A DNA stretch of 64,000 nt from NCBI RefSeq assembly GCF_030323025.1, contig NZ_CP097329.1:1-64000 (forward strand), given 5' to 3'. Position numbers and translations under genes: made by a program. The notes beneath the pieces are model-generated. The model had not been told where the DNA came from. It saw nothing but the letters and a program-made list of their open reading frames with translations, and did no database searches. Shown here one piece after another: positions 7,950 to 47,241 of this stretch; positions within the stretch are counted from its first letter, which is position 1; every line of letters starts with the position of its first letter. Source of the DNA: Pseudanabaena mucicola str. Chao 1806. GTDB taxonomy: Bacteria > Cyanobacteriota > Cyanobacteriia > Pseudanabaenales > Pseudanabaenaceae.

Positions 7950-7955
7950 CAACAT

Positions 7956-7990
7956 AAAGCAAAAGAGGCGCAACGCGCCTCTTTTGCTTT
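7956..7990. terminator. Bidirectional terminator between petG and the 110-aa ORF
   Basis: AAAGCAAAAGAGGCG, loop CAAC, GCGCCTCTTTTGCTTT; A-run on one side and T-run on the other serve both convergent genes. Confidence 0.85.
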
Positions 7991-8544: not shown

Positions 8545-9387
8545 ATGAAATTTCGTAGTTTTACGAAAGCCATTTTTACATTGTGTATTAGTTTATGTAT
8601 GTTAGTAGCCAGTGGTGTATTTGCTAATACTACTTTTGCGGCTGTCCCCCCAGGTTTGACCTATGACCAAATTGTAAACACTGGCTTAGCCAACAAATGT
8701 GGCGATATTCTGGGAACTTCTCGTGGTGGACGCAACTTTATTCCTATTGGTGTGGGTCAGTCTGTCGAAATTACTGACCTTTGCTTAGAGCCAACATCCT
8801 TCTACGTAAAAGAAGAATCTAACAATAAGCGCAAAAAGCCTGAGTTTGTAGCTAGCAAGTTAATGACTCGTTCTACTTCTAGTCTTGATTTCGTAAAGGC
8901 AACTGTTACTGGTAATAGCGATGGTAGCTTGAGCTTAGTAGAAACTGATGGGCTTGATTATCAACCAATCACTGTCAAAATGCCTGGTGGTGAATTGGTA
9001 GCGATTTTGTTTACCATCAAGGGGTATAAGGCAACTACTAACCCTGGGGTCAATGGTCTAACCACATCCGTTGACTTTGTTGGTACAACTGATGTCCCTA
9101 CTTATCGTGGTTCTGGCTTTATCGATCCTAAGGGTCGTGGTCTAGCGATCGGTTATGATGCTGCTGAAGCTTTACCTGCAAAGCGTAATGCTTTCGATAA
9201 CCGCAGCGTTAAGGATGACTCGACCTCTAAAGGTACTCTATCCTTGCAAATTGCGAAGTTGAATGCGGATACTGGCGAAATTGCTGGTACTTTTGAGACC
9301 GAACAAACATCTGACAATGACCTTGGTGGGGTTGAACCTAAGGAAGTAATCATTCGCGGTGTATTTTACGGTAAAGTTAACGCTTAA
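8545..9387 (+). CDS. psbO: Photosystem II manganese-stabilizing polypeptide
   Basis: 280 aa. Signal peptide about 1-32, with cleavage likely after FANTTFA. The mature start LTYDQIVNTGLANKC, the second cysteine in TDLCLEP, and KGGRGMAIGYD-like FIDPKGRGLAIGYD match PsbO. It is a lumenal beta-barrel that shields and stabilises the Mn4CaO5 oxygen-evolving cluster. AGAAGAGG precedes the ATG. Monocistronic, closed by a strong terminator. Confidence 0.95.
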   Translation: MKFRSFTKAIFTLCISLCMLVASGVFANTTFAAVPPGLTYDQIVNTGLANKCGDILGTSRGGRNFIPIGVGQSVEITDLCLEPTSFYVKEESNNKRKKPEFVASKLMTRSTSSLDFVKATVTGNSDGSLSLVETDGLDYQPITVKMPGGELVAILFTIKGYKATTNPGVNGLTTSVDFVGTTDVPTYRGSGFIDPKGRGLAIGYDAAEALPAKRNAFDNRSVKDDSTSKGTLSLQIAKLNADTGEIAGTFETEQTSDNDLGGVEPKEVIIRGVFYGKVNA

Positions 9388-12779: not shown

Positions 12780-13687
12780 GTGCTAGCTAGGGTTTGGAGT
12801 GCCACAATTTTAGGCATCGATGCAGTTCAGGTAGGCGTAGAAGTAGATGTATCGGGTGGATTACCTGGCATCACCCTAGTAGGGTTGCCTGATACAGCCG
12901 TACAAGAAAGTCGTGAACGGGTAAAAGCTGCTATCAAAAATGCAGGATACGCTTTCCCGATGCGAAAAATTGTGATTAATCTCACTCCAGCCGATCTCCG
13001 CAAAGAGGGACCCATCTTCGACTTACCAATTAGTATTGGTATTTTGGCTGCTTCCGAACAAGTTGATCCTCAATTATTAGGTGATCACTTATTTTTAGGT
13101 GAAGTCTCTCTCGATGGTTCCCTGCGACCTGTATCAGGCGTACTACCGATTGCGGCGGCGGCGAAGCAATTAGGCATGATTGGGATCGTTGTGCCTAAAG
13201 AAAATGCTCAAGAAGCGGCATTGGTCAAAGATTTAGCAGTGTATGGATTACAAAGTATTAGCGAGGTTGGTGATTTTCTAGCGCATCCCGAAAAATATCA
13301 ACCCGTAGTCGCCATCCCTGAAATGAAATGGCTTGATAGCGACTTTAAGTTGGATTTAAAAGATGTCAAAGGTCAGCAACATGCTCGCCGCGCCCTAGAA
13401 ATCGCCGCTGCTGGTGGACATAATTTAATTTTTGTTGGTCCCCCAGGTTCTGGCAAAACTCTATTAGCAAGACGCTTACCCAGTATTTTGCCAAATATGA
13501 GTTTTGACGAAGCACTAGAAGTCACTAGAATTCATTCGGTAGCAGGGCTATTAAAAGGTAAAGGGTTAATTAGTGATCGTCCCTTTCGTAGTCCTCATCA
13601 TTCTGCATCAGGTCCATCACTCGTAGGCGGTGGCAGTTTCCCCCGTCCAGGAGAGATAACTTTAGCGACAAACGGGGTGCTTTTTTT
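12780..13687 (+). pseudogene. comM: comM/yifB Mg-chelatase-like ATPase, 5' half, interrupted by the element
   Basis: The GTG start at 12780 gives MLARVWSATILGIDAVQVGV, the normal ComM N-terminus. Present are the N-terminal S5-like fold and the Walker A GPPGSGKT (about 220-227). The reading frame reaches GVLFL and is then broken at the Walker B aspartate. The element contributes NK and a stop at 13695-13697. The missing half begins at 59067. ComM is a hexameric AAA+ branch-migration helicase that promotes integration of transforming DNA. As integrated, the protein lacks Walker B and the sensor regions and should be inactive. Confidence 0.92.
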
Positions 13688-13711
13688 AAACAAGTAGACA
13701 ATACAGAGTTT
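13683..13711. other. attL: left boundary of the integrated element
   Basis: The comM T-tract (TTTTT at 13683-13687, shared with 59062-59066) is followed by AAAC and then the 20-bp terminal repeat AAGTAGACAATACAGAGTTT (13692-13711). The perfect reverse complement is at 59041-59060. The recombinase gene starts 29 bp further in. Confidence 0.85.
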
Positions 13712-13740: not shown

Positions 13741-15186
13741 ATGAAAATTGGATACGCAAGAGTTAGCACAAGAGAGCAATCGGAAAACAGCCATGCCCTT
13801 GAACAGCAGATAGCAAGATTAAAGGCGGCTGGGGCAACTGAAATATATAGTGATGTCGAATCTGGCTCTAAAAACTCGCGCCCGAAGTTTAAGCAATTAA
13901 TTGCCGATTGTAAGCTAGGCAGAATTTCTGAGGTAATTGTAACGCGCTTAGATCGACTTACGAGATCGTTGGTTACTCTCCGCAAAACAATCGATCAACT
14001 CAAAGATGCAGGTGTAAGTTTAGTGGCTCTTGATGACAGCATAGATACTTCGACAGCAGTAGGAAAATTTCATTTGAATATGCTAGGTAGTCTTGCGGAG
14101 ATGGAGGTCGATCGCCTATCAGAAAGAGTTCGGCATGGCTGGAAGCATCTAAGGGATCGCAAAGTTGCCATGAATCCACCTTTTGGCTATTGCAAAATCA
14201 ATGATAAACACACACTCGATCATCAAAAATTCTTATGTTTACTTAGCGATCGTACTGAATTATCAAAAGCCGAAATTGCTCAAGATATTATCAATGCCTT
14301 TTTCCAAGAGCGATCGCTACGTGGCTGCCTCAGAGTAATCAATCCTAAGTATGGAATTTTTACGAGTGCCAATAATAATCATGGCGAAAATATTGGCGGT
14401 GTAACTGCAAGGGGACTTTTTAGATTTTCGATAACTGGCTTGAAAGATTGGCTGATTAATCCCGTTTTACAAGGGCATCTTTGCTATTTGAAAAAAAGAA
14501 ATGGACAAAGACTGGACCGATCGCAGTGGCAGATCTTTAGGAATACCCATGAAGCTTTGATTACTGAACAACAATCAAGGGAAATTGATGAGATTCTTGC
14601 ACACAATAGGCAAGTTCGCGGCTATGGCACACAAGCGCAAAGATTCCCTTTATCAGGGTTGGTATTTTGTGCCGAATGCCGAGCCGCTTGCTACTCCTGT
14701 GCAAGCAGGATTGGGACAAGCAAAACCGAATTTCACTATTATTTCCAATGCAAAAATGCCCAAACAAGATCCTGCAATAATCGCAAGTTAGTCCGACAAG
14801 AAAAATGCGAAGCGGCGGCGATCGCATCTCTAACCCAACGTGCTAGCCAAATTGCCGATATTGCCGAACTTCCACTAGAACGAGTTGAGCCTGTGGAGTT
14901 GCGAGAATTGCGTGGTCAATTGGCTGTCTTGGAAAATCTCGGATACAATCCTGCGATCGCCACAGCAAAGGAACAACTTAGGGCGCAAATTAGCAACTTA
15001 GAGTATGGGCTGACTGTGGGCGCAAACATTGACACCAAGCTAAGGGATGCTCTGATCGATACCTTTGGTAACCCAGTATATTTTTCCTCACTTCCCCTAG
15101 ATGAAAAAAAAGCGATCTATCGGGCTTTGATAGATCGCATAGTGGTTAAGGATGGTGGGGTGGTGAGTGTGGAATTAAAGATTTAG
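13741..15186 (+). CDS. Large serine recombinase (integrase/excisionase), XisF-like
   Basis: 481 aa. The N-terminal resolvase domain begins MKIGYARVSTREQ with the nucleophile Ser9, and contains RLDRLTRS and GSLAEMEVDRLSERVR. A recombinase domain follows (about 155-260), then a zinc ribbon with paired cysteines (FCAEC, YSC, FQCKN, RSCNN, about 310-350) and a C-terminal coiled region. Such enzymes join attP and attB through a 2-bp-overlap double-strand break; XisF of Nostoc is the cyanobacterial precedent. Its position 29 bp inside attL makes it the enzyme that moves this element. No separate directionality factor is recognised. Confidence 0.9.
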   Translation: MKIGYARVSTREQSENSHALEQQIARLKAAGATEIYSDVESGSKNSRPKFKQLIADCKLGRISEVIVTRLDRLTRSLVTLRKTIDQLKDAGVSLVALDDSIDTSTAVGKFHLNMLGSLAEMEVDRLSERVRHGWKHLRDRKVAMNPPFGYCKINDKHTLDHQKFLCLLSDRTELSKAEIAQDIINAFFQERSLRGCLRVINPKYGIFTSANNNHGENIGGVTARGLFRFSITGLKDWLINPVLQGHLCYLKKRNGQRLDRSQWQIFRNTHEALITEQQSREIDEILAHNRQVRGYGTQAQRFPLSGLVFCAECRAACYSCASRIGTSKTEFHYYFQCKNAQTRSCNNRKLVRQEKCEAAAIASLTQRASQIADIAELPLERVEPVELRELRGQLAVLENLGYNPAIATAKEQLRAQISNLEYGLTVGANIDTKLRDALIDTFGNPVYFSSLPLDEKKAIYRALIDRIVVKDGGVVSVELKI

Positions 15187-25738: not shown

Positions 25739-25776
25739 TGCAAATTTGCTATAATAAAAAGAAAAGGGTAGAAAAA

Positions 25777-26202
25777 ATGGCAGTAATCGGAGTGACGGGC
25801 GCGAGAAAGCTAACCACTGAGCAAGTGGAACAACTCAAATATGAACTCTGGGAACTAGACAGAATAGGAACTGAATGGCACATCGGCGACGCGGCGGGAG
25901 TGGATGAAGTCGCGAGAAACTGGGTAGTAAATGGAAATGTAACCACCTACGAAGTAACTGGAACTGAAAAATGGAACTACGCGGAGAGAAGCACTCGCAT
26001 GGTAAAGGCGATCGCCGCCGCAGGTGGCACACTGCACGCATGGGCAAACAAACCAGCACCCAAGGGGCTAAAACCTGCAAAAAACTGGAAAGGCGCGAAC
26101 GGTAGCGGCACATGGGGGACTGTGGCGCTAGCCTGTGGGCTAGGGGTAAAGGTAGAACTACACTGGCTAGAGGACGGGCTAGAAGCACCAGACTGGCTAT
26201 AA
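25777..26202 (+). CDS. SLOG-like (DprA/YspA-type) nucleotide-binding protein
   Basis: 141 aa from the ATG at 25777. IGVTGARKLTTEQVEQL, WHIGDAAGVDEVARNW and the later WNYAERSTRMVKAI with GGTLHAWANKPAPKG follow the SLOG Rossmann-like pattern (GxR..., GGAxGxD). SLOG proteins sense or process nucleotide-derived ligands and occur in conflict systems. Codon use has a high share of AAC/GCG compared with neighbours. Rightward, alone in this part. Confidence 0.6.
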   Translation: MAVIGVTGARKLTTEQVEQLKYELWELDRIGTEWHIGDAAGVDEVARNWVVNGNVTTYEVTGTEKWNYAERSTRMVKAIAAAGGTLHAWANKPAPKGLKPAKNWKGANGSGTWGTVALACGLGVKVELHWLEDGLEAPDWL

Positions 26203-26675
26203 GGTTGGCGGCGAAAACTGGGGGCAAAAAACACGGGGGACTAGCCAAAACGACCGCACCCCGCACACACTCACACTAGGCTAGGGGGTTTGGGGGAGCG
26301 CCAATGAGCGTCCCCCAATCAATTCAAACAAATCGCGTTAGCGTCCGAGCGCACTGACACACAATAAATTTAAAAGCACTAAGCTCAAGTCACAGAATAA
26401 AATGCGAAGCTCAATAGCTCCAATGACTTGAACTTAAGTGCTATACTCGCCCCCATCCCGTCAGTGCGCCCGAGGGGTTTGGGGACACTTCCCCATTCAT
26501 TCAAAAACTGGCGAAGCAACAATAGGCGATCGAGGGGTTTGGGGACACTTCCCCATTGAATTACTGGCATTTTGCCCGATCGCATAAAAGTTTAGTCCGT
26601 TGTTTCTGGAGCATTTGCCAAGCAAAAAATTATGCTTAGCCCTTCAAGATTTTTTGCTTGGCAATTGCGGTCTTT

Positions 26676-26761
26676 GTGCCTTTGTCATGGTGCGATTTTA
26701 GAGGGCGATCGCTCAGCCCTTATAGCGCCCGAAAAAAACGCACTATGACAGCACAGTTCGG
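26676..26761 (+). repeat. Structured repeat unit A
   Basis: Begins GTGCCTTTGTCATGGTGCG and ends CGCACTATGACAGCAC plus AGTTCGG. The arms pair: GTGC/GCAC, GTCAT/ATGAC, GTGCG/CGCAC. Preceded by the 15-bp hairpin at 26615-26664. Confidence 0.75.
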
Positions 26762-27028
26762 ATCGGGCTTTGCCCGTCAATATAGATGTTAGTTACTCGA
26801 GGTGGTGGGCCAGGTGCAATAACTCTAAATTTCTCAGACAGCGATCGCTATTTAGCACCTAGCCCAACGCCGACAACGCAGCCACAAATTAAACTATTCG
26901 GGCGATCGCTCTAAGCTTTTGCAACTTTCCCCTAGAACGAGAATCAACAAACTTTCAACTTACGGACACGGTGCGATCGCCGATCTTGGGTGCAGCAGGA
27001 AGATCGGCGAATAGCACTGTGTATCTTC

Positions 27029-27114
27029 GTGCCTTTGTCATGGCGAAATTTTCAAAATTCCTGCTTAGTCCTTCGAGAATTTTGCAAATTTCGCGATGAC
27101 AGCACAGGTTCGGA
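27029..27114 (+). repeat. Structured repeat unit B
   Basis: Same ends as unit A (GTGCCTTTGTCATGG; GATGACAGCACAGGTTCGGA), but the inner stem is changed on both sides: GCGAAATT pairs with AATTTCGC. Preceded by the hairpin at 26978-27009. Confidence 0.75.
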
Positions 27115-27705
27115 TTACGCAGTATCAATAGGCGATCGAGGGTTTGGGACACTTCCCAATTAAACAAATGGCATTTTGCCCGATCGCATAAACGCGAAGC
27201 AACAATTGTTTCTAAAGGCGGGGCGATCGCAAGTTTTGGGCTTTGTCAGGAAAACTTGCGATTAGCCCTGCCGATCTTATTGGTAGCGAAGATGGGCGTA
27301 GGTACTCCGTAGCCTATCGTAGCGGCACACCAGAGATAAGTCTCAACCGAGGATTCGATAACCTAGACGAGAGAGTGCAGTGGAGAGAGCGTAGTGCAGT
27401 GTAGTGAAGCTGTGAGCCATAAACCCTGTAGCGATCGCAAGTAACCTTTGATATCAGGACTGGCGAACGGCGCAACGAAACAAACGCAGCGATCGCAACG
27501 GAACGAACGGTCGGCAACATTAACGATTGGTTGGTAGCGTAGGTGGGCGTATGAGTGTAAGGAGCGTAGGAACGGAGCGACTGAAACGAATAGCTGACCG
27601 TAGCGGCACATCACAAACAGCGATCGCATGAACTCTTGAGGCGTTGCAAATTTAAAAATTATGCTCAGCCCTTCAAGATTTTTTAATTTGCAATGCCGAT
27701 CTTTC

Positions 27706-27786
27706 GTGCCTTTGTCATGGTGCGATCGGTAATCTTGGGCGATCGCAGGAAGATTGCCGAATAGCACGATGACAGCACAGTTCGGA
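27706..27786 (+). repeat. Structured repeat unit C
   Basis: GTGCCTTTGTCATGGTGC ... GCACGATGACAGCACAG then TTCGGA. Contains a GGG...CAGG-loop hairpin (27727-27759) inside. Preceded by the hairpin at 27644-27693. Confidence 0.75.
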
Positions 27787-28010
27787 CACGCAGTATCAAT
27801 GTTTCTGGGTAGTTGGCAAAGTGGGCCATAAAAATCTGCCTAGCTTTGATTCCTAATAAGAGCGATCGCTATTGGTAAAGATTTTTTGGCTCACGGAAAC
27901 GCAGCGGCAATCTTGTACTGGAAATAACTGATAACTTGGGACTGCTAGCACGTCGCGATCGTAGATCTTGGGTGCAACAGGAAGATCTGCGGTTAGCGAT
28001 GTGCTTTTTC

Positions 28011-28093
28011 GTGCCTTTGTTGCGGTGCGATCGCCATTATTAGACCATTTCAAAAACTCAAGAGCGATCGCACGGCAACAGCACAGGTTCGGA
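28011..28093 (+). repeat. Structured repeat unit D
   Basis: GTGCCTTTG and CAGCACAGGTTCGGA are kept, while the stem has changed to TTGCGGTGCGATCGC pairing with GCGATCGCACGGCAA. Preceded by the hairpin at 27960-27991. Confidence 0.75.
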
Positions 28094-28162
28094 CGCGAAG
28101 CAACAATACATTTGGGATATTTGGCTTTAAATCGAAACTTTATACAATGCGATCGCCTTATG

Positions 28163-28213
28163 GTTCTAGTGGAAATTTTGCAACAAATGCGATCGCTAAT
28201 TGTTCTAGTGGAA
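28163..28213. repeat. Two direct copies of the element dodecamer
   Basis: GTTCTAGTGGAAA at 28163 and GTTCTAGTGGAA at 28202, between the hairpin tract and the zinc-ribbon gene. Confidence 0.75.
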
Positions 28214-28215
28214 GA

Positions 28216-28497
28216 TTAACCTTCCCATCCGCACATCGGACAATTCCAACTGGACCGATCGCTATCAGAATACTCATGCCGACATTGCGGACACATACCC
28301 GTAAACATGGGATGCGTCATTAAAATCTGGTACTGCTGCGCTCTGGTCAACCTCTGCACATGGTCAGTTTCATAGGTCACTGGCAACTTGAGATCGGGGC
28401 ATACTTCACCATCAATGCCTACAGGATGGATCTCACAGACTAAATCATGGCTATGGGCATAGTGGCGACAGCGATCGCAGTCGGGTATTTTGGGCAT
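28216..28497 (-). CDS. Zinc-ribbon protein
   Basis: 93 aa with several cysteine pairs: CDRCRHY, LVCEIHP, EVCPDL, then CPQCRHEY and CPMCGWEG at the C-terminus. The last two CxxC form a zinc ribbon. Function unknown; small two-ribbon proteins are common on cyanobacterial plasmids. A dodecamer copy (28528-28539) lies upstream of the start. Confidence 0.6.
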   Translation of the reverse strand: MPKIPDCDRCRHYAHSHDLVCEIHPVGIDGEVCPDLKLPVTYETDHVQRLTRAQQYQILMTHPMFTGMCPQCRHEYSDSDRSSWNCPMCGWEG

Positions 28498-29554: not shown

Positions 29555-30116
29555 GTTTCCAATCAATCGCGTCCCCTAGCGAGTAGGGGAGGCGGTGATT
29601 TAGATGTTGATAAATTCATTATTGATAGTTTCCAATCAATCGCGTCCCCTAGCGAGTAGGGGACGTTAGTAGTAGTGATAAACTACCTAAGCACTTTATT
29701 GTTTCCAATCAATCGCGTCCCCTAGCGAGTAGGGGAAGAAAGAATATGCTTATAGCCGAGTTGCGTAATGCCTAGAGTTTCCAATCAATCGCGTCCCCTA
29801 GCGAGTAGGGGATTGATCGGGCGCGTCGTACGCTGTTCCATAATTACTTCAAGGTTTCCAATCAATCGCGTCCCCTAGCGAGTAGGGGAAGTTGTATGAG
29901 CTATCTTTCGAGATAAGTACATTAAAAGTTTCCAATCAATCGCGTCCCCTAGCGAGTAGGGGACAGGGACTTCTTTAAAATCAGGAACTATGGCATGACC
30001 GTTTCCAATCAATCGCGTCCCCTAGCGAGTAGGGGATAGATGTACTCAGACTATCGTTCCTATATCAAGTTGGTGATGTTGTTTCCAATCAATCGCGTCC
30101 CCTAGCGAGTAGGGGA
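29555..30116 (-). CRISPR. Orphan CRISPR array, block 1 (8 repeats)
   Basis: Eight copies of a 36-bp repeat, starting at 29555, 29628, 29701, 29777, 29854, 29928, 30001 and 30081; spacers are 37-44 bp. The repeat begins GTTTCCAATCAATCGCGTCC on the plus strand and contains the stem CCCCTA/TAGGGG. Read on the minus strand it ends TTGGAAAC, the usual 3' form, so transcription is probably leftward with the leader on the right. No cas genes adjoin it, and the repeat is unrelated to the larger array. Confidence 0.95.
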
Positions 30117-30468
30117 CTCAAGCTGACCAAAAGCACCAGTGGTAGAAACGTGTAGAGATTTTGGAGTGTTGTCTAGAATGTCGGTTGCCATATTTAATCC
30201 TGAGTAAACTTAATAAAATTGGGCTGGGCTGGTTTATTTTTTACCTTTGGTATTATCTCCGTTAGGTGGAGAGATAAGAGCAACGGTTAAAGCAAAAACC
30301 CAAACAGAAAAACAGAAACCTGTCCAAGGAAAAAACATTGGGTGTACCTATTTAGAGAGAGAATTATATTGGATGCGTAGTTTATTTAGTGTTGTACTTG
30401 GGCTGGGTCGCCCCCTAATGTATCGGGGGAGGTCGCGCCAGTGTTGTATTGTGAATCATGCTGCTGCT
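30117..30468. other. 352-bp insert between the two array blocks
   Basis: Non-repeat DNA where a spacer should be. On the minus strand it carries a hairpin (TTATCTCTCC with GGAGATAA, near 30256-30278), an A/T-rich stretch, CAGGAT, and an ATG at 30191 opening MATDILDNTPKSLHVSTTGA; that frame ends inside the first CRISPR repeat of block 1. A GC-rich palindrome lies near 30407-30438. Confidence 0.6.
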
Positions 30469-30658
30469 GTTTCCAATCAATCGCGTCCCCTAGCGAGTAG
30501 GGGAGAACAATCTCTGCTATCATAAATACATCTACACTTATAGTTTCCAATCAATCGCGTCCCCTAGCGAGTAGGGGAATTCTTAGCTATTTGTGAAGAT
30601 AGAAGTGACCTTGCCTTACCAAGTTTCCAATCAATCGCGTCCCCTAGCGAGTAGGGGA
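30469..30658 (-). CRISPR. Orphan CRISPR array, block 2 (3 repeats)
   Basis: Three perfect copies of the same 36-bp repeat at 30469, 30543 and 30623 with 38-44-bp spacers. Confidence 0.93.
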
Positions 30659-36109: not shown

Positions 36110-39100
36110 GTGCTCAACGCCTTTCGGCATCAGAGATTCAACACTTACCCAGATTCGCAAAATAAGGATCGCGTTTTGAAGTGTGCTCAACGCCTTTCGG
36201 CATCAGAGATTCAACACTCGCCTATCTCTAATTCGTGGATTATGCGATCGGTGCTCAACGCCTTTCGGCATCAGAGATTCAACACCCTAAGTTTGCAGGT
36301 TCCGCACAGAGTCGCGTTTATGTGCTCAACGCCTTTCGGCATCAGAGATTCAACACAGAAAAACTAGATAACAAGGTAGTAGTAGAAATTTGTGCTCAAC
36401 GCCTTTCGGCATCAGAGATTCAACACACCGCTTCTTTTTGGTGCTGGTATAGACTTCTCCGTGCTCAACGCCTTTCGGCATCAGAGATTCAACACCAATC
36501 GCTTACGCGCTCTTTGGCTCCCAAAAACGGGAAAGTGCTCAACGCCTTTCGGCATCAGAGATTCAACACAAGCCAAGAAAAGCAAGTATCTATAGGGAAG
36601 GCAAAAGTGCTCAACGCCTTTCGGCATCAGAGATTCAACACTACCATTAGGATCGAGCGAACAAACGCCGCCAACAGTGCTCAACGCCTTTCGGCATCAG
36701 AGATTCAACACTTGCGGTGAAGGCTTGCCACTTATCAGGCAGCTTCACGTGCTCAACGCCTTTCGGCATCAGAGATTCAACACGCAAGTTTGAGCCATCA
36801 ATCGGCTCATAGTCCACGTGTGCTCAACGCCTTTCGGCATCAGAGATTCAACACTTCTGATACGGGCTTAGGTAAATCACCTCCAGATAGTGCTCAACGC
36901 CTTTCGGCATCAGAGATTCAACACAGCTCTATTCTCTGGGCTACTTCCAATAGCTCTAATGTGCTCAACGCCTTTCGGCATCAGAGATTCAACACGTTAT
37001 TACCACGCCACCACCTGCGGCTGGCTACTGTGCTCAACGCCTTTCGGCATCAGAGATTCAACACGGGAATTTCGCCCCCGACTCAGAACCATATCTTTGT
37101 GCTCAACGCCTTTCGGCATCAGAGATTCAACACTGCTAATACCAGGATTGAGTAAAATAATATCAACTTCAGTGCTCAACGCCTTTCGGCATCAGAGATT
37201 CAACACTGAGTCCAGCGCAAAGCAAGCGCCCGCACTTTCATGTGCTCAACGCCTTTCGGCATCAGAGATTCAACACCGACCATGCAGCCGCTATGAACTC
37301 GCTAAGTAATTAGTGCTCAACGCCTTTCGGCATCAGAGATTCAACACGAAATCTGAATGGATAAAATGCGTATGTTTATTCCTTGTGCTCAACGCCTTTC
37401 GGCATCAGAGATTCAACACGGACTTCCGCTAATCCGCCTGATTTGATTCTTTGCTGTGCTCAACGCCTTTCGGCATCAGAGATTCAACACGCAATAGGTA
37501 GATGTGCAAGAGTAAGTTACCTTAATGTGCTCAACGCCTTTCGGCATCAGAGATTCAACACAACCGTACTGTCTGTTGGGAATTTACGTTCGGAACGTGC
37601 TCAACGCCTTTCGGCATCAGAGATTCAACACTGAGTCCAGCGCAAAGCAAGCGCCCGCACTTTCATGTGCTCAACGCCTTTCGGCATCAGAGATTCAACA
37701 CCGACCATGCAGCCGCTATGAACTCGCTAAGTAATTAGTGCTCAACGCCTTTCGGCATCAGAGATTCAACACGAAATCTGAATGGATAAAATGCGTATGT
37801 TTATTCCTTGTGCTCAACGCCTTTCGGCATCAGAGATTCAACACGGACTTCCGCTAATCCGCCTGATTTGATTCTTTGCTGTGCTCAACGCCTTTCGGCA
37901 TCAGAGATTCAACACGCAATAGGTAGATGTGCAAGAGTAAGTTACCTTAATGTGCTCAACGCCTTTCGGCATCAGAGATTCAACACAACCGTACTGTCTG
38001 TTGGGAATTTACGTTCGGAACGTGCTCAACGCCTTTCGGCATCAGAGATTCAACACCAATGAAACGTCAAGTTCTAGACACGATTCGTATGTGCTCAACG
38101 CCTTTCGGCATCAGAGATTCAACACCAATTGGAACTCTATCTACATCACGCATAACGACAGTGCTCAACGCCTTTCGGCATCAGAGATTCAACACTGAGC
38201 TAGGCATTCAGAATATTGCGAGAATCAATAGTGCTCAACGCCTTTCGGCATCAGAGATTCAACACGAAGAAGAAGGGAAAACGGTATCAACTAAAACTAG
38301 ATGTGCTCAACGCCTTTCGGCATCAGAGATTCAACACTTTGCCCAATCCTCTTCCTGTTGTACGGCTGAACGATAGTGCTCAACGCCTTTCGGCATCAGA
38401 GATTCAACACTACTGTATCCAGTTGATTAGAAGTATAGGGATTAGATGGTGCTCAACGCCTTTCGGCATCAGAGATTCAACACTAGGTAGTGAAACGAGT
38501 TGAGAGAACGAACGTGTATGTGCTCAACGCCTTTCGGCATCAGAGATTCAACACATTGGGTAGTTGTGGCTGAGAGCATGAGGGAGGGGAATCGTGCTCA
38601 ACGCCTTTCGGCATCAGAGATTCAACACCAGAATAATTCTTACGGGATTAGAGAGGTGATTCAGTGCTCAACGCCTTTCGGCATCAGAGATTCAACACAT
38701 GGAATACAGAAAGAAGTAACGCGATTATCTAAGTTGTGCTCAACGCCTTTCGGCATCAGAGATTCAACACAACCTGTTAAACAATCTTTTAATCCAGATT
38801 GTTTTCGTGCTCAACGCCTTTCGGCATCAGAGATTCAACACTGCGGTAATTTACCTTCAACCTGTCCATAGCCAAAAGTGCTCAACGCCTTTCGGCATCA
38901 GAGATTCAACACACTGACGATCAAGGTATCTACGCTCAGTTCTTTTAGTGCTCAACGCCTTTCGGCATCAGAGATTCAACACGTTAAAGTATTTTCCTAC
39001 AGGTTTTCCAGATTCAATGTGCTCAACGCCTTTCGGCATCAGAGATTCAACACATCTCGCAATATCTGAGGGGGTTCGTAGCTTACCGTGCTCAACGCCT

Positions 39101-39336
39101 TTCGGCATCAGAGATTCAACACGTAGTTGAGCCACCAGTCGCAACACCGCTAGCCAATAGTGCTCAACGCCTTTCGGCATCAGAGATTCAACACATCTTT
39201 AGTCATTAGTCAAGCTAGGTAAATAAATTTGTGCTCAACGCCTTTCGGCATCAGAGATTCAACACAGTTTTTTTGGCGCGAGCCTTCGCTTTTGCTAAGT
39301 TGTGCTCAACGCCTTTCGGCATCAGAGATTCAACAC
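36110..39336 (-). CRISPR. Large CRISPR array, 46 repeats
   Basis: 46 copies of a 35-bp repeat that begins GTGCTCAACGCCTTTCGGCA and ends GATTCAACAC on the plus strand; 45 spacers of about 34-37 bp. All repeats I read are identical. On the minus strand the repeat folds into GCC-GAAA-GGC (GNRA tetraloop) leaving a short 3' tail ending TTGAGCAC, a typical Cas6 handle, so transcription is probably leftward from a leader at 39337-39581, next to cas2. A block of six spacers is exactly duplicated (37172-37596 and 37597-38021). Confidence 0.97.
37172..38021. repeat. 425-bp tandem duplication inside the CRISPR array
   Basis: Six repeat-spacer units starting at 37172 recur with the same spacers in the same order from 37597. 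Starts 37172, 37597 and 38022 are each 425 bp apart. Confidence 0.95.
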
Positions 39337-39581
39337 AGCGATCGCTCAAACCCTTATAGGGGTTATAACGGTTGTCAACCATGCAAGCACCTCATTAAAA
39401 TAGTATAGATCATCGCTCGCTCTAGCAACTTGTATCGGTCTAAATAGGTTCAAATCCTTACCTCACATAACAAAGACAAAATACATGGATCTCAACTAAC
39501 TCCAAAACGAATAGAAATAACCACACGTAAGATATTGCAGCCTTATCGACAACAATTTTTTAAAACAGACAGAGATCCATG
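39337..39581 (-). promoter_or_regulatory. Probable CRISPR leader
   Basis: 245-bp non-coding gap between the array and cas2. Contains the hairpin-like ACCCTTATAGGGGT and A/T-rich tracts. The opposite flank (36000-36109) is even more AT-rich and is the alternative leader if the array runs rightward. Confidence 0.45.
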
Positions 39582-39879: not shown

Positions 39880-41562
39880 TTACCTCAACACCAATTGAGC
39901 AAATAGTCCTTCTTCTCCATTCCATTCTTTCTCTAACAGGCGTACTTCCAACTCAATCAAGCGGCGATAGGTTAGTGAATAGCCCAAAACAGGATGTTTC
40001 CAGCTCTCCTGTTTGCGCTTCTCATAGATATCGATAAACTTACGTCGCCCCGAATCACTAAGCCATACTTGACCTCCGCGCACCTCAAAATCTTCTTGAA
40101 TATGCCATTGACCACGATTAATCGAGCCAACGATGGACATATCAACCAAAGGCACACGAAAAATTTCAATTAAATCTAACGATAGAGGAGGAGCTTGTGT
40201 TCTGGGCTGATGATAAAAACCAAGGGCTGGCTCTAGACCCACTGATAGAATTGCGCTCATGACATCTTTTAATAAAAGTGCATACCCGAATCCCAACAAT
40301 GCATTAAAACGGTCTTTAGGTGGACGACGATTGCGATCGCTAAACTTCATTTCGATAGGTACATCATCACCCAAAAGTTTAGGCAAAGCCCCAAAATACA
40401 AAGCTGCTAAATTGCCTTCTAATCCTAAAAGAGAAGGAATAGAATTTACATCTGGAATTTGCTTTAGAACAATTTGCATTTGTTTAATTGCCTTTTCAAG
40501 ATCCTCTGGAATTTGCTCTAGACCACGTTGACCACGCATCAAAAATTTGCGCTGTCCTTTGCCTCGACAGGTCACAAGTTTTTTTGCCAAATCCAGACAT
40601 TTATCAGGGTTACTCAAAGCTGCATATTGGCGAATACGTCTTTGGATACTGCCATTACGAGGATCAAAACTGCCTACATAGCGCCCACCTCCAGACACGA
40701 AATGCACTCCTATATCTTGGGCAACACAAAGATGTAGAGCTTGAGTTGAAATTTGTGAGAAGCTATGTAAAACCAACTGTCCTATTTGCTTGGCAGGAAC
40801 AATTTCATCGGACCGATCGCGTTTTACGATTTTAATTTGTTCGCCTTTCTTGCCAACACTCGTACCAGCTTCAAGTACATGAATCACCTCTCGTTCGTCA
40901 TCTTTGGGGAATAGCCTCACTGGTTGCCATTCGCGATCATGTGCCAATCTAGCTTCTTCAGGCAGGCATACAGGTGAAAGAGAGCATCGCCCACAAAGCC
41001 TTTCATTATCGGTAACTGGTGGTCGGCAAGGTGAAGCCCGTAAATATTTCGATCTTGCGATCGCATCATGGACAAGTTTACGACCTTCATCATTAAGAGG
41101 CACATGAACTAAAACATTGTCTGCATGGTAACGAATCCGCCCTTCTTGAATAGAAATCCCTAAAGCCATCTCAAGTAGATAGGCATAGGCGAGAATCTGC
41201 AAGCGATCGCTTTCCCATGCTTGTGGTTGCTTGTTTTTATCTCGCGCCGCTTTACCTCTCTTATGTTCATATGGGATTGTCTGACCGTTGCGGGTACGCA
41301 GAGCATCAACCTTGCCACGCAAACCTAGTTCCGCACTTTCTAAAAAAAGTTCATCCCAATCTTCATCTTCTTGCTTCTCAAGTTCAGCATGGAGCCGTCG
41401 CCCTGCAAAGACTGCTGCATCTTGGGTATAGAGTTCTTCAACTTCTTCAAGATAAAACAGTCGTTCGCAGTAGGCTAGTGCATGGAGAGCCGAAACACGG
41501 ATCGAATCTTGTGCGGTATCTGATGGAATATTTTCTACGATGTCAATATCGGGCACGTACAT
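39880..41562 (-). CDS. cas4-cas1: Cas4-Cas1 fusion protein
   Basis: 560 aa. N-terminal Cas4 (about 1-215): RecB-type nuclease with an initial cysteine in YCERLFYLEE, FAGRRLHAELE, YEHKRGKA and the Fe-S cluster cysteines CGRCSLSPVC. C-terminal Cas1 (about 225-560): QLVLHSFSQISTQALHLC, FVSGGGRYVGSF, the acidic LEGNLAALYF and DRFNALLGFGYALL. Fusion couples PAM-selecting Cas4 trimming to Cas1 integration. Such fusions are known in MYXAN/I-G-type systems. Confidence 0.93.
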   Translation of the reverse strand: MYVPDIDIVENIPSDTAQDSIRVSALHALAYCERLFYLEEVEELYTQDAAVFAGRRLHAELEKQEDEDWDELFLESAELGLRGKVDALRTRNGQTIPYEHKRGKAARDKNKQPQAWESDRLQILAYAYLLEMALGISIQEGRIRYHADNVLVHVPLNDEGRKLVHDAIARSKYLRASPCRPPVTDNERLCGRCSLSPVCLPEEARLAHDREWQPVRLFPKDDEREVIHVLEAGTSVGKKGEQIKIVKRDRSDEIVPAKQIGQLVLHSFSQISTQALHLCVAQDIGVHFVSGGGRYVGSFDPRNGSIQRRIRQYAALSNPDKCLDLAKKLVTCRGKGQRKFLMRGQRGLEQIPEDLEKAIKQMQIVLKQIPDVNSIPSLLGLEGNLAALYFGALPKLLGDDVPIEMKFSDRNRRPPKDRFNALLGFGYALLLKDVMSAILSVGLEPALGFYHQPRTQAPPLSLDLIEIFRVPLVDMSIVGSINRGQWHIQEDFEVRGGQVWLSDSGRRKFIDIYEKRKQESWKHPVLGYSLTYRRLIELEVRLLEKEWNGEEGLFAQLVLR

Positions 41563-41628
41563 AATCTAATTACCTCAAGGATAAGAATTTAGTTAAGCGC
41601 CCAAAGGCATTAATGATGTTTTCGCAAG

Positions 41629-42330
41629 CTAGTTAGGTTTTTTTGGTGTCCAGATCCAAGCATTGCTTGGCGGTTCGACAGATGGTTCGCTCGTTGGAGC
41701 AAATAAATGACTCGTCGTTTTACTGTTATCAAGACGGTCGATACCGACTGTCAACCTTTGCGATTTCTTTCTTGGTGCTGAATCAACTGCCATCTTTTCA
41801 TACCAATGAGTTAGCGGTGGACTGTCGATGATGTCAATGCGATCGAATAGAAAGTTATTGTCACCAGCAAAAGGCATTCCATAGCGTTGAGCATTTAACT
41901 CACCTCGCAAACCTTGACGAATGCGATCGAACAGACCTTCAAATTCCTGAATACCAATAATTATGTCCAGTCCAACCAACAACTCTCTTCGCACAGGCGT
42001 AATCCAAAATTTAGCGCCTTTGGCTAAAGGCTTCAAGGTATCCTTGCCAGAATTTCCCACAGGATAACTATGAAGCTGTTGATAGAGCGTACATACCTCA
42101 CTATCTGAGCCATCCACGGCACCGATCGCTAACTGTAAATGAGGAATATCCGAACGAATCTGAGTCGTTGGTTTGTCTAACCCCGTTCTCATCTCAATTC
42201 CAGCCAGATTTAACACCAATCCTAAAGCTGCCGATGGCGGCATGATCGGCATCGTTGTTCGATACACACCAGCTTGAAAAGCACGATAGGCAGCAAAAGG
42301 CGCACGAACGCGCAACCACATACAATTCAT
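41629..42330 (-). CDS. cas5: Cascade subunit Cas5 (DevS-like)
   Basis: 233 aa. MWLRVRAPFAAYRAFQAGVY then TMPIMPPSAALGLVLNLAGI is the Cas5 N-terminal RAMP fold with the loop that caps the crRNA 5' handle. Position between cas7 and cas4-1 matches the Dev/MYXAN order. Confidence 0.87.
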   Translation of the reverse strand: MNCMWLRVRAPFAAYRAFQAGVYRTTMPIMPPSAALGLVLNLAGIEMRTGLDKPTTQIRSDIPHLQLAIGAVDGSDSEVCTLYQQLHSYPVGNSGKDTLKPLAKGAKFWITPVRRELLVGLDIIIGIQEFEGLFDRIRQGLRGELNAQRYGMPFAGDNNFLFDRIDIIDSPPLTHWYEKMAVDSAPRKKSQRLTVGIDRLDNSKTTSHLFAPTSEPSVEPPSNAWIWTPKKPN

Positions 42331-42339
42331 CGCGTTCTC

Positions 42340-43221
42340 CTATCCTAAAAATTCATTAGCAAGATCAGCTAATAACTTCTGCGGATTTTCGTACAACTTT
42401 GCACCAGCATCTTGATACCGTTTAAGATCTTCAGCTTTCATATTGCGAACAATTTCACCACCGATCCAAAATTCATTAGCAGGAAGATCGTCAGATTTCA
42501 AGCGCGACAATTCAGGAAAGCTGCCAGTTTCATCGAATCCGTAGGTGTTAAATCCTGCCACAAGGCAAGGGGTAAGCCTCGCGACAATACTTTTAGGAGC
42601 CATTTCGTAATAGCTACGAGCATGACCACCTGCAACGTCTGAAAGCTCGCTAATTGCTTTTAGTAAAGCCTTGACCCAATCAGGCTTTTCTTTACAGTCA
42701 TTGTAAGCAAGAGCAAAAGGGTATTGATAAGCTGTGTGGGAAATTTCACGAAGCAAAAGTGCCGAAGTAGATGAGTTTTTCCAAGTACTATTTCCTGCAT
42801 TTAGTGGAGACTGGTGAAAAGTCGCATCAAACTTATAGGGATTCAATGCAAGAGCCATATTCATTCTCAAAATACTATCGCGCTTGGGCGGGAGTCCTTT
42901 GTTCTTTTTGATTGCATCATTGTCTGCAACCATAAAGCCAAACAAAAAATCATCAGCAAACTTGCTTGCATTAGGAAATTCTTGAAATTCAACCGCAAGT
43001 TGATCTTGGTCGTGTAAGCGTTTACGGTTAGATGGCACACCCGCCTTAATCAACATCTCTCGCAAGGCATTACGCATAGACTCTGGGCTAATAACTGTGA
43101 ATTCCTTCTTGTCCTTAACGATTTTCTGCAACACCGTGCGGTTTTCTTCGCTTTCACCACGATAGTTAGAACTTGGGGCGGCATAGGTGAGAACGGTAGC
43201 AAATAGATTCTTGTTAGTCAT
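42340..43221 (-). CDS. cas7: Cascade backbone subunit Cas7 (DevR-like)
   Basis: 293 aa. NLFATVLTYAAPSSNYRGES, AGGHARSYYEMAPKSIVARL and the N-terminal RRM-like core match the Cst2/DevR branch of Cas7, which coats the spacer part of the crRNA. Length is normal. Preceded by AAGAGAAAAAACA before the ATG. Confidence 0.9.
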   Translation of the reverse strand: MTNKNLFATVLTYAAPSSNYRGESEENRTVLQKIVKDKKEFTVISPESMRNALREMLIKAGVPSNRKRLHDQDQLAVEFQEFPNASKFADDFLFGFMVADNDAIKKNKGLPPKRDSILRMNMALALNPYKFDATFHQSPLNAGNSTWKNSSTSALLLREISHTAYQYPFALAYNDCKEKPDWVKALLKAISELSDVAGGHARSYYEMAPKSIVARLTPCLVAGFNTYGFDETGSFPELSRLKSDDLPANEFWIGGEIVRNMKAEDLKRYQDAGAKLYENPQKLLADLANEFLG

Positions 43222-43256
43222 TGTTTTTTCTCTTGTAATTAGAATGTGATTGAAAA

Positions 43257-44903
43257 TTAGCTGTTAGCGGACAGAGCAAGCATGGTCAAGGTACGCACCT
43301 TGTCTGTATCTTCATAGAGATCACGAGTGAGTTTCTCAAAACTATCCTCATTCATGCGCTGAGATACAGAACAGATGGTTGACGCAAAGTAGTTGATAAA
43401 ATCAGAATTTTCAGTACGGCTGCGAACTTCCAGAAAAGCAGACTTGGCAATCTTGCCTTTTTTCTCGCGATATTCACTTTCTTTCGGTGTTCCCTGAACT
43501 TCTTTCCATTTGAGTTGATATTTGCCTTCAAGTTTGCTCATTACATAGGACTTGACCAATCGCAAAACTAGCTTCTCACAAGAATATTCGGCAACATCAG
43601 GATTGAGACTTTGTTCAGTTTCTTCAGACATATTTTCTACCTCACATTTAAAAGATTCGCGAACATCATGACAGAAATAATCATTTCCCATCGTCAGTTC
43701 ATAGGGGATGGTACATAGTAGCGAATCAAAGCCTATGTACCAGTTTTTGTTACTCACCAGATTAAGTAATCTTTGACGGCGAAATGTAGCGTGCCATAGG
43801 CTTTCTCGGATTTCGCGATACTTATCAATCCACTCCTGTTCAGGCGGATCGAGTCTAGTCGATCCGAGAATCCGTACATTGTTTCCTTGTTTCTCAACAT
43901 GGATAACATCTACACCCATAACTAAATCACCAATGCTAGTTTCTAATCTAGAAACACGATCACGTAATCTAGCCATCATATCTAGCGCCCCTTCTACTGC
44001 AAGATCGACCACAGCATCGCGGGGACGATAGCCAGTAACTTCCTTCCCACGTTCTTTTAATAGTCCGAGAAATTCATCACAGAATATTTTGAGGTTTGCA
44101 ACATCAGGCACGGCGATCGCATAGCCCACAAAATCGCGCTTGCCTTCGTTGTTAATTACGGCTGGCACATAGATAGACGCGGCAAACACCCAAAAATGTA
44201 AAAGAAATTGATACCTTGCCCGATCCTTAAATGGCACATTTTCAGGGTTACTAGCTTGCGCTCCAATGTAATAGGTACTAGGCAGATCTACTGTAAATTC
44301 AGCAGGTTGTAGTAGCTCTTTCCAGATTTTGTCAGCATCATCGGTATAGTTCCCACTGGCTCTTGACTCATAAGGCAATCTCGTAGCTGGGACACCCCGC
44401 AAAATGCTCCAGAGCATATCCCGCCATAGTTTAATCCACTTACCGCGATCGCCTTCAGGATCGGCATCAGCTATGTATGCACCTTTTGGGACAACCACTT
44501 GATAGATGAAGACTTTTTTCTTGATGGGTTTACCCTTTTTATCTACCTCATCTTTTTCTTCTTCACGCAAATAAGGAATTACTTCTTTAGTACGCGCATT
44601 TTTGAGAACTTGAGTCCGTTCTTGTTCTTCCCAACTAGCCTCGTAGACCTGATTAAATAAAGCTTGTAAGCCTAGTTGATTAATACGCAATGAGACTGAG
44701 CGATCGCTTAAATTATCGATTTCACAAATTGCAGCGCCATCTTGTTTCCACACATCGAAGCGATGCAACCAACGCACCATTAAAACCAGTCCTGCTAGAC
44801 CAGATCTATGCTGAGAAGAAGGCAAATCCGCCAATGTATAGTTCAGAATTATTACTCCAGTTTCTGGTAATAGAGATGTTTGTTTAGAGCTTTTCTTAGC
44901 CAA
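43257..44903 (-). CDS. cas8: Cascade large subunit Cas8 (Cmx8/DevT-like)
   Basis: 548 aa from a TTG at 44903, which has GGAGGAGG seven bases upstream; the stop of cas3 is overlapped by 8 bp. An ATG at 44975 exists but lies deep inside cas3. The start MAKKSSKQ is followed by YTLADLPSSQHRSGLAGLVL, the conserved N-terminus of the MYXAN-type Cas8. This subunit recognises the PAM and recruits Cas3. Product is weakly conserved in the middle, as usual. Confidence 0.82.
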   Translation of the reverse strand: MAKKSSKQTSLLPETGVIILNYTLADLPSSQHRSGLAGLVLMVRWLHRFDVWKQDGAAICEIDNLSDRSVSLRINQLGLQALFNQVYEASWEEQERTQVLKNARTKEVIPYLREEEKDEVDKKGKPIKKKVFIYQVVVPKGAYIADADPEGDRGKWIKLWRDMLWSILRGVPATRLPYESRASGNYTDDADKIWKELLQPAEFTVDLPSTYYIGAQASNPENVPFKDRARYQFLLHFWVFAASIYVPAVINNEGKRDFVGYAIAVPDVANLKIFCDEFLGLLKERGKEVTGYRPRDAVVDLAVEGALDMMARLRDRVSRLETSIGDLVMGVDVIHVEKQGNNVRILGSTRLDPPEQEWIDKYREIRESLWHATFRRQRLLNLVSNKNWYIGFDSLLCTIPYELTMGNDYFCHDVRESFKCEVENMSEETEQSLNPDVAEYSCEKLVLRLVKSYVMSKLEGKYQLKWKEVQGTPKESEYREKKGKIAKSAFLEVRSRTENSDFINYFASTICSVSQRMNEDSFEKLTRDLYEDTDKVRTLTMLALSANS

Positions 44904-47241
44904 GATCCACCTCCTCCAAGTTTTTTGTAGAAAATCCCGATCGCACATTATAATTACCTTCCCACTGAGCAACACCTAAGTATTTAGGCAGCCAACTCGG
45001 TTTGTTATCAGATAGGTTTGCTCCCTTTCGAGGAACATTGATAATGAAACCATCATGGGGTTTCCTAGGTCTAGATTCCATACTTTCTTTGACCTTTTCT
45101 AGATCGCGATCAAGAATACAAGGCACAGCATATTCATCGGTATCACGAAAGCTCCCTGCTATAGCAAAATACCCACTTGTAAAAAATGATGGCAGTCCAT
45201 CCGCCTTTCGCTCCTCATTAGCAAACTTTTCCAAAGCTTCCGCTAAGCGCTTTTGACTAATATCACCACTACCTAACTCATTGATAAACTTTTCGGCTGT
45301 ACCTAATTCTTGGCGATCGTAGGGTAAATCTTTCGGCGGCTTGTAAATATGCAAGGTAGCCCTAAAGTCGTCACCTCTTGCCAAATGGCGGTTTGCACGA
45401 CCGAAACGCTGAACTAGCGAAGATATTGGGGCATATTCAGTAATCAAAACATCAGCATCCAAATCGAGAGACATTTCACATACCTGTGTAGTTACAGCGA
45501 TCGCTGGTTTACGATCTCCATCCTTTTGAAAAGCAAAAGCCTTGACCGTATTTCCGTGAACTGTTTGGCGATCGCTCAACCGAAAACGACTGTGATAGGT
45601 CAAAACCTCCACATTTAGCTCATCAGCAAGCTTCTTAGAAATTGCTAAACAGCGATCAACTGTATTCACCACCCATAAGACTCTTTCACCTTGTCTGTAG
45701 GCATCAACAGCTTTTGTAAAAGCATCATCAAAACCAGTCACAGGTTGAAGTTGATAACGTGGATGGGTTTCTTTGATTTCAAGGTCTTGCAGACTTTCGC
45801 GGTCACTTTCTGTTGGATAAACCTGTAAACCTAAATCTATAAGTTGTTTGCGCCGCGATGGAGGTAATGTCGCTGTCATACACAGGACAGGGATATCAAA
45901 ATGTTTTAGAAAAGCGATCAAACTATCAAACATCTTCAAGTCAAAGCTATGAATTTCGTCAATAATCAAAACGCTGTCAGCCAAAGCTGGTAAAAGGCAT
46001 ATTCCACCATAGCTATGCTCCAAGAATCCCAAAAATTGATCGACCGTCGCGCTAAAATATCGCCGCGACCAAAAGCCAAGAGAAAATAAGCGATCGTCAG
46101 TTGTAAAGTCTTTTTCTTTCATAGAGTCGGGCGGATTATCTGCCATAGCCTCTAATTCGTATTTTGCTGTTCCCGTCACTAATGCTGCATCTGCTTCAGG
46201 TGCCCAACTGACATAATCTTTAAATCCCTCTGTAGCAGTGCCTCGTGTGGGGTATAGAAAGATCACCTTTCCAACTTTAAAATGCTTAACTTGTTCCTCC
46301 GCCCATTTCCAAGCCGCAAGAGTTTTACCTGCACCACAAGCCGCTAAAAGCAAAACCCGCGATCCTTGCTCTGCTGCTAATGTCTGAAAGTTATGTAATT
46401 TAAAAGGCTCGTTAGTTCTTGCCTCAATTTGATTGAAGCGTTTTTGGAGAATACTATTGGTGATGTCCTGACTAACGATCGCTGCGCTATGCACAACATC
46501 TTCAATCCATTCATCAATATTTTTATTCTCTCTAACCAAACCTGAAGCCGCCGCATCAGAGATGATTAGCCCTGTTTTTACAGACAAAAGTAAGCTTCTT
46601 CTTTTGTCTGTTATTCCCCGCATCAAGTTCTTGGCTGTTGTCATACCTTCCTTCCACGCTTTGCCCCAAATAACATCTTGGGAAAAAGTAGAAAACGGTA
46701 GTTCTGGGGGAGCATTAAGATCAGCTATTTCGGCAATTTCTTGCAGAATGTTTTTGACCTCATCATGGAGAAGATAGAGTTGAACTGGTTTATTACGGCT
46801 TCCTTTATTTGGGCTTCCCCATTGCCGATCTCCTTTTTCTTCAGCTTTAAGATGGTGTGATAGCACTGCTGCCGTAATAACTTCAACATCAAGAGGTTGG
46901 TGGTTTAACCAAGAGCGGACTTGAGGCAAATGCAGTATCAAAGCGCTGATATGTTCGTGTCTAAAAGTCTGATCAAATCCTCCTGATACTGCCTTATAAA
47001 ATTCTTCATTTGCCTTGCCGATGTCGTGAAACAACGCTGCAACACGCAAATTCAAAAGAAATTTTTGTTGCTCCTCCTCACTAGCAAGCTTAAAAAAACG
47101 ACACCAATTTTGTCCCCAACGCCCATCTAAACGAAAGATTTGACGAGCCGAGTTTTCTGTGTCGGATAGATGCTCTTGCAAAGTAACAATGCGATCACCT
47201 CGTTTACTTTTTGCTAATAGTTGCTCTGGTAAGTTTGCCAT
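44896..47241 (-). CDS. cas3: CRISPR-associated helicase-nuclease Cas3
   Basis: 781 aa. N-terminal HD nuclease with FHDIGKANEEFY and LSHHLKAEE. Helicase: Walker A AACGAGKTLAAWKWAEE, DEAH-box variant IIDEIHSF, motif III MTATLPP, motif VI VQRFGRANRH. It degrades the displaced strand after Cascade binding. All motifs look intact. Starts 3 bp after the cas6 stop. Confidence 0.93.
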   Translation of the reverse strand: MANLPEQLLAKSKRGDRIVTLQEHLSDTENSARQIFRLDGRWGQNWCRFFKLASEEEQQKFLLNLRVAALFHDIGKANEEFYKAVSGGFDQTFRHEHISALILHLPQVRSWLNHQPLDVEVITAAVLSHHLKAEEKGDRQWGSPNKGSRNKPVQLYLLHDEVKNILQEIAEIADLNAPPELPFSTFSQDVIWGKAWKEGMTTAKNLMRGITDKRRSLLLSVKTGLIISDAAASGLVRENKNIDEWIEDVVHSAAIVSQDITNSILQKRFNQIEARTNEPFKLHNFQTLAAEQGSRVLLLAACGAGKTLAAWKWAEEQVKHFKVGKVIFLYPTRGTATEGFKDYVSWAPEADAALVTGTAKYELEAMADNPPDSMKEKDFTTDDRLFSLGFWSRRYFSATVDQFLGFLEHSYGGICLLPALADSVLIIDEIHSFDLKMFDSLIAFLKHFDIPVLCMTATLPPSRRKQLIDLGLQVYPTESDRESLQDLEIKETHPRYQLQPVTGFDDAFTKAVDAYRQGERVLWVVNTVDRCLAISKKLADELNVEVLTYHSRFRLSDRQTVHGNTVKAFAFQKDGDRKPAIAVTTQVCEMSLDLDADVLITEYAPISSLVQRFGRANRHLARGDDFRATLHIYKPPKDLPYDRQELGTAEKFINELGSGDISQKRLAEALEKFANEERKADGLPSFFTSGYFAIAGSFRDTDEYAVPCILDRDLEKVKESMESRPRKPHDGFIINVPRKGANLSDNKPSWLPKYLGVAQWEGNYNVRSGFSTKNLEEVDLG

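Follow-up and report, generated by a model that had tools for sequence, protein, structure and literature searches.

Closest described systems

The palindromic repeats of the REP, BIME and REPIN kind (PMC3733652; see also PMC3116915) are the nearest described relatives of the hairpins analysed here. According to the available part of PMC3733652, REP and BIME elements are imperfect extragenic stem-loops that have alternative complementary residues in their stems and tolerate G.T pairs. In the same text, some REP families have mismatches at fixed positions, dimers join unlike members, and some families are restricted to one genus. The attC sites of integrons are presented in the accessible part of PMC8352920 as folded sites with a conserved outer part and a variable inner part. 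The Frpo/ssi single-strand promoters lie near leading-region genes such as ardA in the portion of PMC11541004 at hand. We found no literature whose title or abstract opening describes the hairpin family reported below.

Anatomy of the array

The window, i.e. the whole stretch of 64,000 nucleotides that was analysed, contains four units, A, B, C and D, which start at positions 26676, 27029, 27706 and 28011, all on one strand. A sequence-only reading had proposed four repeats with fixed ends here, and all four do have them at these places, with GTGCCTTTG at one end and CAGCACAG(G)TTCGGA at the other. When the whole 4.53 Mb genome was scanned with the pattern GTGCCTTTG-N40-70-ACAGCACAG, it gave four matches, which are A-D only; the reversed-pattern control gave none. 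Each unit is built of two tandem hairpins, H1 and H2, separated by a short linker (e.g. GATCTTTC) and followed by a tail. In A-D, H2 is 74-80 nt long, its feet are GTGCCTTTG on the 5' side and CAGCACA on the 3' side, and the tail ends in CAAT. Two conserved loops are found in the inner hairpins, GCTTAGCCCTTCAAGA with its close variants and CTTGGG-N5/6-CAGGAAG, and both kinds occur in H1 and also in H2.

All hairpins of the array are given here on the + strand, and the H2 of every unit was identified both by the pattern and by a covariance model. In unit A, H1 carries the loop GCTTAGCCCTTCAAGA (26611-26668; z -4.05), H2 has the feet just described (26676-26755; z -5.62), and the tail GTTCGGATCGGGCTTTGCCCGTCAATA (26756-26782) belongs to a class common to two units of other genomes, G012_3 and G018_1. 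Unit B has the loop CTTGGG-N5-CAGGAAG in H1 (26966-27022; z -6.14), the inner loop GCTTAGTCCTTCGAGA in H2 (27029-27106; z -5.68) and a tail ending in CAATA (27107-27130). In unit C the loop of H1 is GCTCAGCCCTTCAAGA (27640-27697; z -4.43), the inner loop of H2 is CTTGGG-N6-CAGGAAG (27706-27779; z -6.46), and the tail ends in CAAT (27780-27800). Unit D again has CTTGGG-N5-CAGGAAG in H1 (27948-28004; z -5.62), followed by an H2 with the stem TTGC/GCAA (28011-28085; z -5.29) and the tail GGTTCGGACGCGAAGCAACAATA (28086-28108).

The other structural statements of that reading largely held. It had described a stem that changes on both strands together, with the inner stem replaced in B: the stem of H2 is GTCAT/ATGAC in A-C and TTGC/GCAA in D, and the inner stem of B differs. 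It had placed another hairpin before each unit, which corresponds to H1 with the z values above, and a short following segment ending in CAATA in three of them (A, B and D; that of C ends in CAATG). The CTTT/A asymmetry that it had called constant is constant in A-D, but varies in other units of the host genus (CTTA, TTTT and others).

Two further hairpins accompany the units. A long hairpin, H0, lies upstream (26347-26470, + strand; found by RNAfold and as inverted repeat I19), with a folding energy of -45.7 kcal/mol (RNAfold, 26330-26485) in this genome, G000. At the same place G013 has a hairpin with another stem sequence and a common loop start, CAGAATAAAAT, and a folding energy of -79.9 kcal/mol. 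A solitary H1-like hairpin without H2 occupies 27217-27272 on the + strand and includes a copy of family D4 (27246-27268). Between the units there is also a nested palindrome, CGAGGGGTTTGGGGACACTTCCCC ... GGCATTTTGCC (26466-26588 and 27130-27192), which occurs at G012, G022 and G013 too. The segment 27427-27547 has a second copy, 93% identical, outside the element (C1:1994553-1994673).

Genomic setting of the array

The array lies in a stretch of about 2 kb without a recognised gene, where open reading frames reach at most 134 aa and none is recognised. It is part of an integrated element of about 45 kb (13698-59064, ends approximate), delimited by the two halves of a split comM-like gene with Mg-chelatase domains. 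The left half is the open reading frame 12780-13697, cut within PF01078; the right half, 59065-59682, carries PF13335, a domain expected at this end of the gene, at 59368-59661, the sole match of this domain in the genome. A right end near 54.2 kb had been considered and was abandoned, the end being placed by PF13335. A large serine recombinase of the XisF type (13741-15186) adjoins the left break and scores 511 bits, against a cut-off of 375 for XisF. In G013, which is of the same species, this recombinase is 99.8% identical and the left comM part 100% identical, and the genome has two units of its own.

The cargo of the element comprises ArdA, a Dam-type methylase, a ParA-like protein, a type I-B CRISPR-Cas set and the hairpin array. 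The genes for ArdA, for the Dam-type methylase and for an annealing protein with a weak likeness to Sak (E = 0.0012) lie to the left of the array on the - strand. The immediate left neighbour of the array (25774-26202) has a weak likeness to DprA, below the family cut-offs, and the right neighbour (28216-28497) is a small zinc-ribbon-like gene with weak Pfam matches below cut-off. Relatives of the latter are found in loci of G012, G022, G030, G025 and G014, the first three of which have strong units and the fourth the end of a unit. Further to the right there are two differing sets of short direct repeats that resemble CRISPR arrays (29557-30654, with a spacing of about 73 nt, and about 36191-39338). 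The type I-B cas set (39880-48876) is near both, and the repeat of the first set has many further copies near C1:3.61 Mb.

Signs of selection on a single-stranded fold

For none of the eight H1 and H2 hairpins of A-D did any of 200 shuffles reach the stability of the original. In each of the four units the + strand forms a more stable fold than the - strand, whether RNA or DNA parameters are used. In an alignment of 18 units, 93.6% of the stem cells are paired (81.5% in shuffles), and 12 of the 20 stem pairs have changed on both sides with pairing kept (7.3 in shuffles). For covariation the alignment scores 0.417 and the shuffles 0.191, none of them as high as the alignment, and the signal is lost when the partners are slid. 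Further pair types in this alignment do not exceed the shuffles (21 against 21.5), and two versions of the stem explain much of the stem change.

We then counted residual mismatches in the H2 of 22 units and the H1 of 16, on arms chosen by hand. Away from one fixed position, and with identical arms removed, there are 21 G.T and 5 A.C mismatches (22 and 5 before removal); the associated p of 0.0025 is rough because arms and class thresholds were hand-set and the copies are related. Leaving aside four standalone or decayed units (G022_3, G026_1, G011_1 and G027_1), the counts are 16 and 1 (p = 0.0003, rough on the same grounds). The fixed position, near the foot of the hairpin, has G.T or G.G in 19 of the 22 H2 (two A-T and one C.T in the others) and G.T in 14 of the 16 H1 (T.T in the other two). 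Since G.T outnumbers A.C among the residual mismatches, it is apparently the + strand that folds. Together with the covariation and the greater stability of the + strand, this bias suggests that selection acts on the + strand in its folded form. More frequent C-to-T change on a + strand that is often single-stranded could add to the G.T bias. Strand bias and covariation would be just as expected of a functional RNA and do not distinguish DNA from RNA.

A family restricted to one genus so far

A search of the 26 genomes of the host genus with a covariance model of H2, made from 18 units and with rough E-values, gave 22 strong matches (E ≤ 4.2e-12) in 10 of them. The seed accounts for 18 of the 22, and the strong units outside it are G022_3, G027_1, G026_1 and G011_1. 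There are seven strong units in G012, four in this genome, three in G022, two in G013 and one each in G030, G018, G027, G020, G026 and G011. Most of the weaker matches come from these hairpins read on the other strand; G009, G014 and G005 have only weak ones (E from 0.0015 to 0.0055). Among 12 genomes of the same family but other genera, G005 alone has any match, a weak one. A class-wide search with the H2 model under stricter filters (194 genomes, 109 genera) found matches in six genomes, all of the host genus. As copies of the unit are present in other genomes, conservation is not limited to this element.

The genes next to these copies are diverse. A SOUL gene adjoins a unit in G027 and at the extra SOUL copy of G018, the only two with a unit among the 25 SOUL loci read; neither the other SOUL copy of G018 nor the SOUL gene of this genome has one. 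A VapBC-like gene pair, assigned by eye, lies beside units in G011, G026 and G022, and Rieske genes lie near units in G022 and G030 (G025 has only the end of a unit and G014 no strong unit). The unit is oriented differently to the gene at the SOUL and at the VapBC-like loci, by eye for the latter. That units elsewhere adjoin SOUL, VapBC-like or Rieske genes speaks against a role confined to the element, such as an origin or an oriT, although the G018 copy also lies near a gene for a MobA-type relaxase. Of the sequence-only proposal of a multi-copy structure, a conserved single-strand fold is supported by covariation, G.T bias and occurrence in other genomes; its reading of function, as a structure for replication or transfer, is not shown by these data.

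Some loci have further features. In G018 the extra SOUL gene with its unit follows a gene for a MobA-type relaxase (PF03432; L213:4865-6388), whose end lies 0.2 kb before it. The array of G012 is split by a gene for a DDE transposase (PF13701; L169, reverse strand, 7743-9107) immediately before the unit matching D. MITEs are marked by terminal inverted repeats together with a target-site duplication; when ends were compared by eye at the SOUL and VapBC-like loci, we saw no clean empty site and no target duplication. A clean empty SOUL site in G017 was considered and rejected: its likeness stops at the start of the G018 and G027 unit, and the downstream DNA is unlike.

A loose pattern scan of the genome contig collection returned at least 118 stretches, with one weak match to model R1 (L049, 22.7 bits). 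In scans of viral contigs (39 + 35 = 74 loci), only L374 gave R1 matches, two weak ones of 19 bits, which were dismissed as ordinary GCGATCGC palindromes. Exact tail patterns had no match in the viral contigs, and the plasmid and phage collections gave no match. The idea that the loops are repeats dispersed over this genome found no support: exact copies number three for the type 1 loop, all in the array, and five for the type 2 loop, three of them in the array. The type 1 loops that G012, G018 and G030 have at other places (L325-L327) do not match model R1.

Module combinations and breaks of homology

With thresholds set by hand, we sorted the units into 12 upstream (H1), 9 H2 and 4 downstream classes. 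The classes of H1, H2 and tail combine differently among units, an observation that goes beyond the sequence-only reading. For example, H1 class a1 is joined with H2 classes b1, b3 and b8, and H2 class b3 with H1 classes a1, a8 and a11. H2 class b9 follows the upstream classes a7, a10 and a12 and precedes three downstream classes, of which that of G011 is not such a tail.

Several matches between loci end at the feet. The BLAST match of unit C with G012_6 begins at the 5' foot of H2 (27706), and unit D matches G025 from 28078 onward, at the 3' foot. The likeness of G011 to G026 and G022 covers the gene pair and H2 and stops after the last A of GCACA in the 3' foot. G018 and G027 have SOUL and H1 in common and differ in H2 class and tail; their match stops within the 5' arm of H2, off the foot. 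The match of unit A with G012_3 begins at 26739, within the 3' arm of H2, also off the foot. Some homology breaks, but not all, thus coincide with hairpin feet, and sequence common to the arms blurs the ends of the matches.

Comparison with known repeats and sites

The units resemble REP and BIME elements, in so far as the available text describes these, in their alternative complementary stems, G.T pairs, fixed mismatches, mixed dimers and restriction to a genus. They differ in that the H2 of A-D is 74-80 nt long, against 20-40 nt, and in having one to seven copies per genome, where REP/BIME repeats are short palindromes with many intergenic copies. REP/BIME palindromes carry a GTAG or CGTC tag at the foot. 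None of the 22 units has the motif GTAG/CTAC at a distance of up to 15 nt from the feet of H2 (in G027_1 the 3' foot was misplaced by the script). CGTC/GACG was found within the same distance in five of the 22, at varying positions, and the scan of flanking proteins detected no Y1/RAYT-type transposase. We do not class the units as members of REP/BIME, since they lack the GTAG tag and differ in both length and copy number.

The attC sites end in the complementary motifs R'' (RYYYAAC) and R' (GTTRRRY). The identity of the units as attC sites was rejected, RYYYAAC/GTTRRRY having no occurrence on either strand in 26200-28300. The strict search has limited sensitivity: it finds two sites per strand at L362 and also at L364 (shuffle means 0.4-0.7), one per strand at L363 (shuffles 0.45-0.6) and none at L365. 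With up to four mismatches allowed, the core CTAACGGCTTAATTGAGC of the repeats at the integron loci of this genome has 3, 7, 1 and 0 copies at L362-L365 and none in the G000, G012 and G013 arrays. An integron integrase above cut-off is encoded by 13 of the 26 host-genus genomes, i.e. six of the 10 with units and seven of the 16 without; the four integrase-negative carriers include G012, with seven units, and G022, with three. This genome has two integron integrases (L362, C1:4478372-4479313; L363, C1:3533942-3534883) with attC-like repeats nearby. The units are thus like attC, as the part of its description at hand gives it, in a fold with a conserved outer and a variable inner part, in the use of one strand and in cargo-like gene neighbours, and unlike it in having neither an R box nor an evident link to the integrase; the repeats at the integron loci of this genome also differ from them.

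With the Frpo/ssi promoters, as far as they are described in the portion available, the array has in common stem-loops near ardA on a mobile element; it differs from them in that promoter-like sites are not in excess and that copies also lie beside unrelated genes. Such promoters have their -35/-10 elements within the stem and lie upstream of leading-region genes. Simple consensus scans of 26200-28300 gave three promoter-like sites (2.2 expected) and one terminator-like site (2.9 expected). One of the promoter-like sites is in H1 of unit C, on the - strand, and by eye its -35-like part is not retained in A or in G013_1. Rfam has no match in the window at the gathering score; the matches below it are to microRNA models only.

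Interpretation

The units unite a two-hairpin anatomy, compensatory change, strand-biased mismatches, a kept mismatch position, presence at several loci and varied combinations of modules. Our best explanation, which we hold tentatively and at somewhat less than an even chance, is a REP/BIME-like family of palindromic repeats, so far of one genus, which would fold as a single + strand and be spread and reshuffled by recombination near its feet. Mostly two, sometimes one, imperfect stem-loops would stand head to tail and fold when the + strand is single-stranded, each keeping a mismatch near its foot. The folded strand, more probably DNA than RNA, may be recognised by an enzyme, and recombination at or near the conserved feet may spread copies and swap H1, H2 and tails between loci. 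The array of this element would then be a by-product or a substrate of such traffic in modules and not an origin of transfer or replication. A further reading, in which the units are a new class of strand-specific folded recombination sites that work independently of the integron integrase and swap hairpins, tails and neighbouring genes at their conserved feet, with modules traded between arrays on mobile elements and elsewhere in the genomes of the genus, strikes us as improbable.

Other readings account for part of the same evidence. The conserved loops on covarying stems, the one-strand excess of G.T over A.C and the more stable + strand fold of all four units would also suit a structured non-coding RNA in several copies, transcribed from the + strand, with loops on variable stems that bind a protein or an RNA. 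We regard this as unlikely but worth keeping in view: 26200-28300 has no excess of promoters or terminators, no Rfam family is matched at the gathering score, the same position holds different types of loop, and the orientation to the SOUL and VapBC-like genes varies. If instead the units were passive palindromes without function, kept symmetrical by template switching during replication, neighbouring stem pairs could differ between related copies with complementarity kept, as they do, and the stems of H0 could differ between G000 and G013 at the same place. Such a process predicts neither the excess of G.T over A.C, nor the G.T or G.G kept in 19 of 22 H2, nor the CTTT/A asymmetry of A-D, and we give it little credence.

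A recombination site that acts in folded form and mobilises gene cassettes, like attC but served by another enzyme, would explain why the genes linked to units (the extra SOUL, the VapBC-like pair and Rieske) look like cargo, why the likeness of G011 to G026 and G022 stops at the 3' foot of H2 and why modules combine variously. It seems to us a distant prospect given the absence of attC ends from 26200-28300 and of the integron core from three arrays, the four of 10 unit-bearing genomes without an integron integrase above cut-off, and the lack of recognised genes between the units in the window. Equally doubtful is a single-strand initiation, transfer or promoter region of the element (Frpo-like, sso or oriT). 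The genes for ArdA, the weak Sak-like protein and the Dam-type methylase to the left are on the - strand, so that single-stranded DNA of the + strand would be their template; the available part of PMC11541004 describes such promoters near such genes, and the MobA-type relaxase gene of G018 ends 0.2 kb before a SOUL gene with a unit. Yet no relaxase was found among the proteins of the element that were scanned, a + strand gene separates the array from the ArdA, Sak-like and Dam genes, promoter-like sites are at chance level, and copies elsewhere stand beside unrelated genes.

In this family, signs of selection for a fold on one strand go together with many combinations of modules, a pairing that known palindromic repeats display only partly. 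Were the exchange enzymatic, it would represent a recombination system guided by structure, in addition to integrons and REP/RAYT. The host genus also has integron integrases, which allows the two to be compared.
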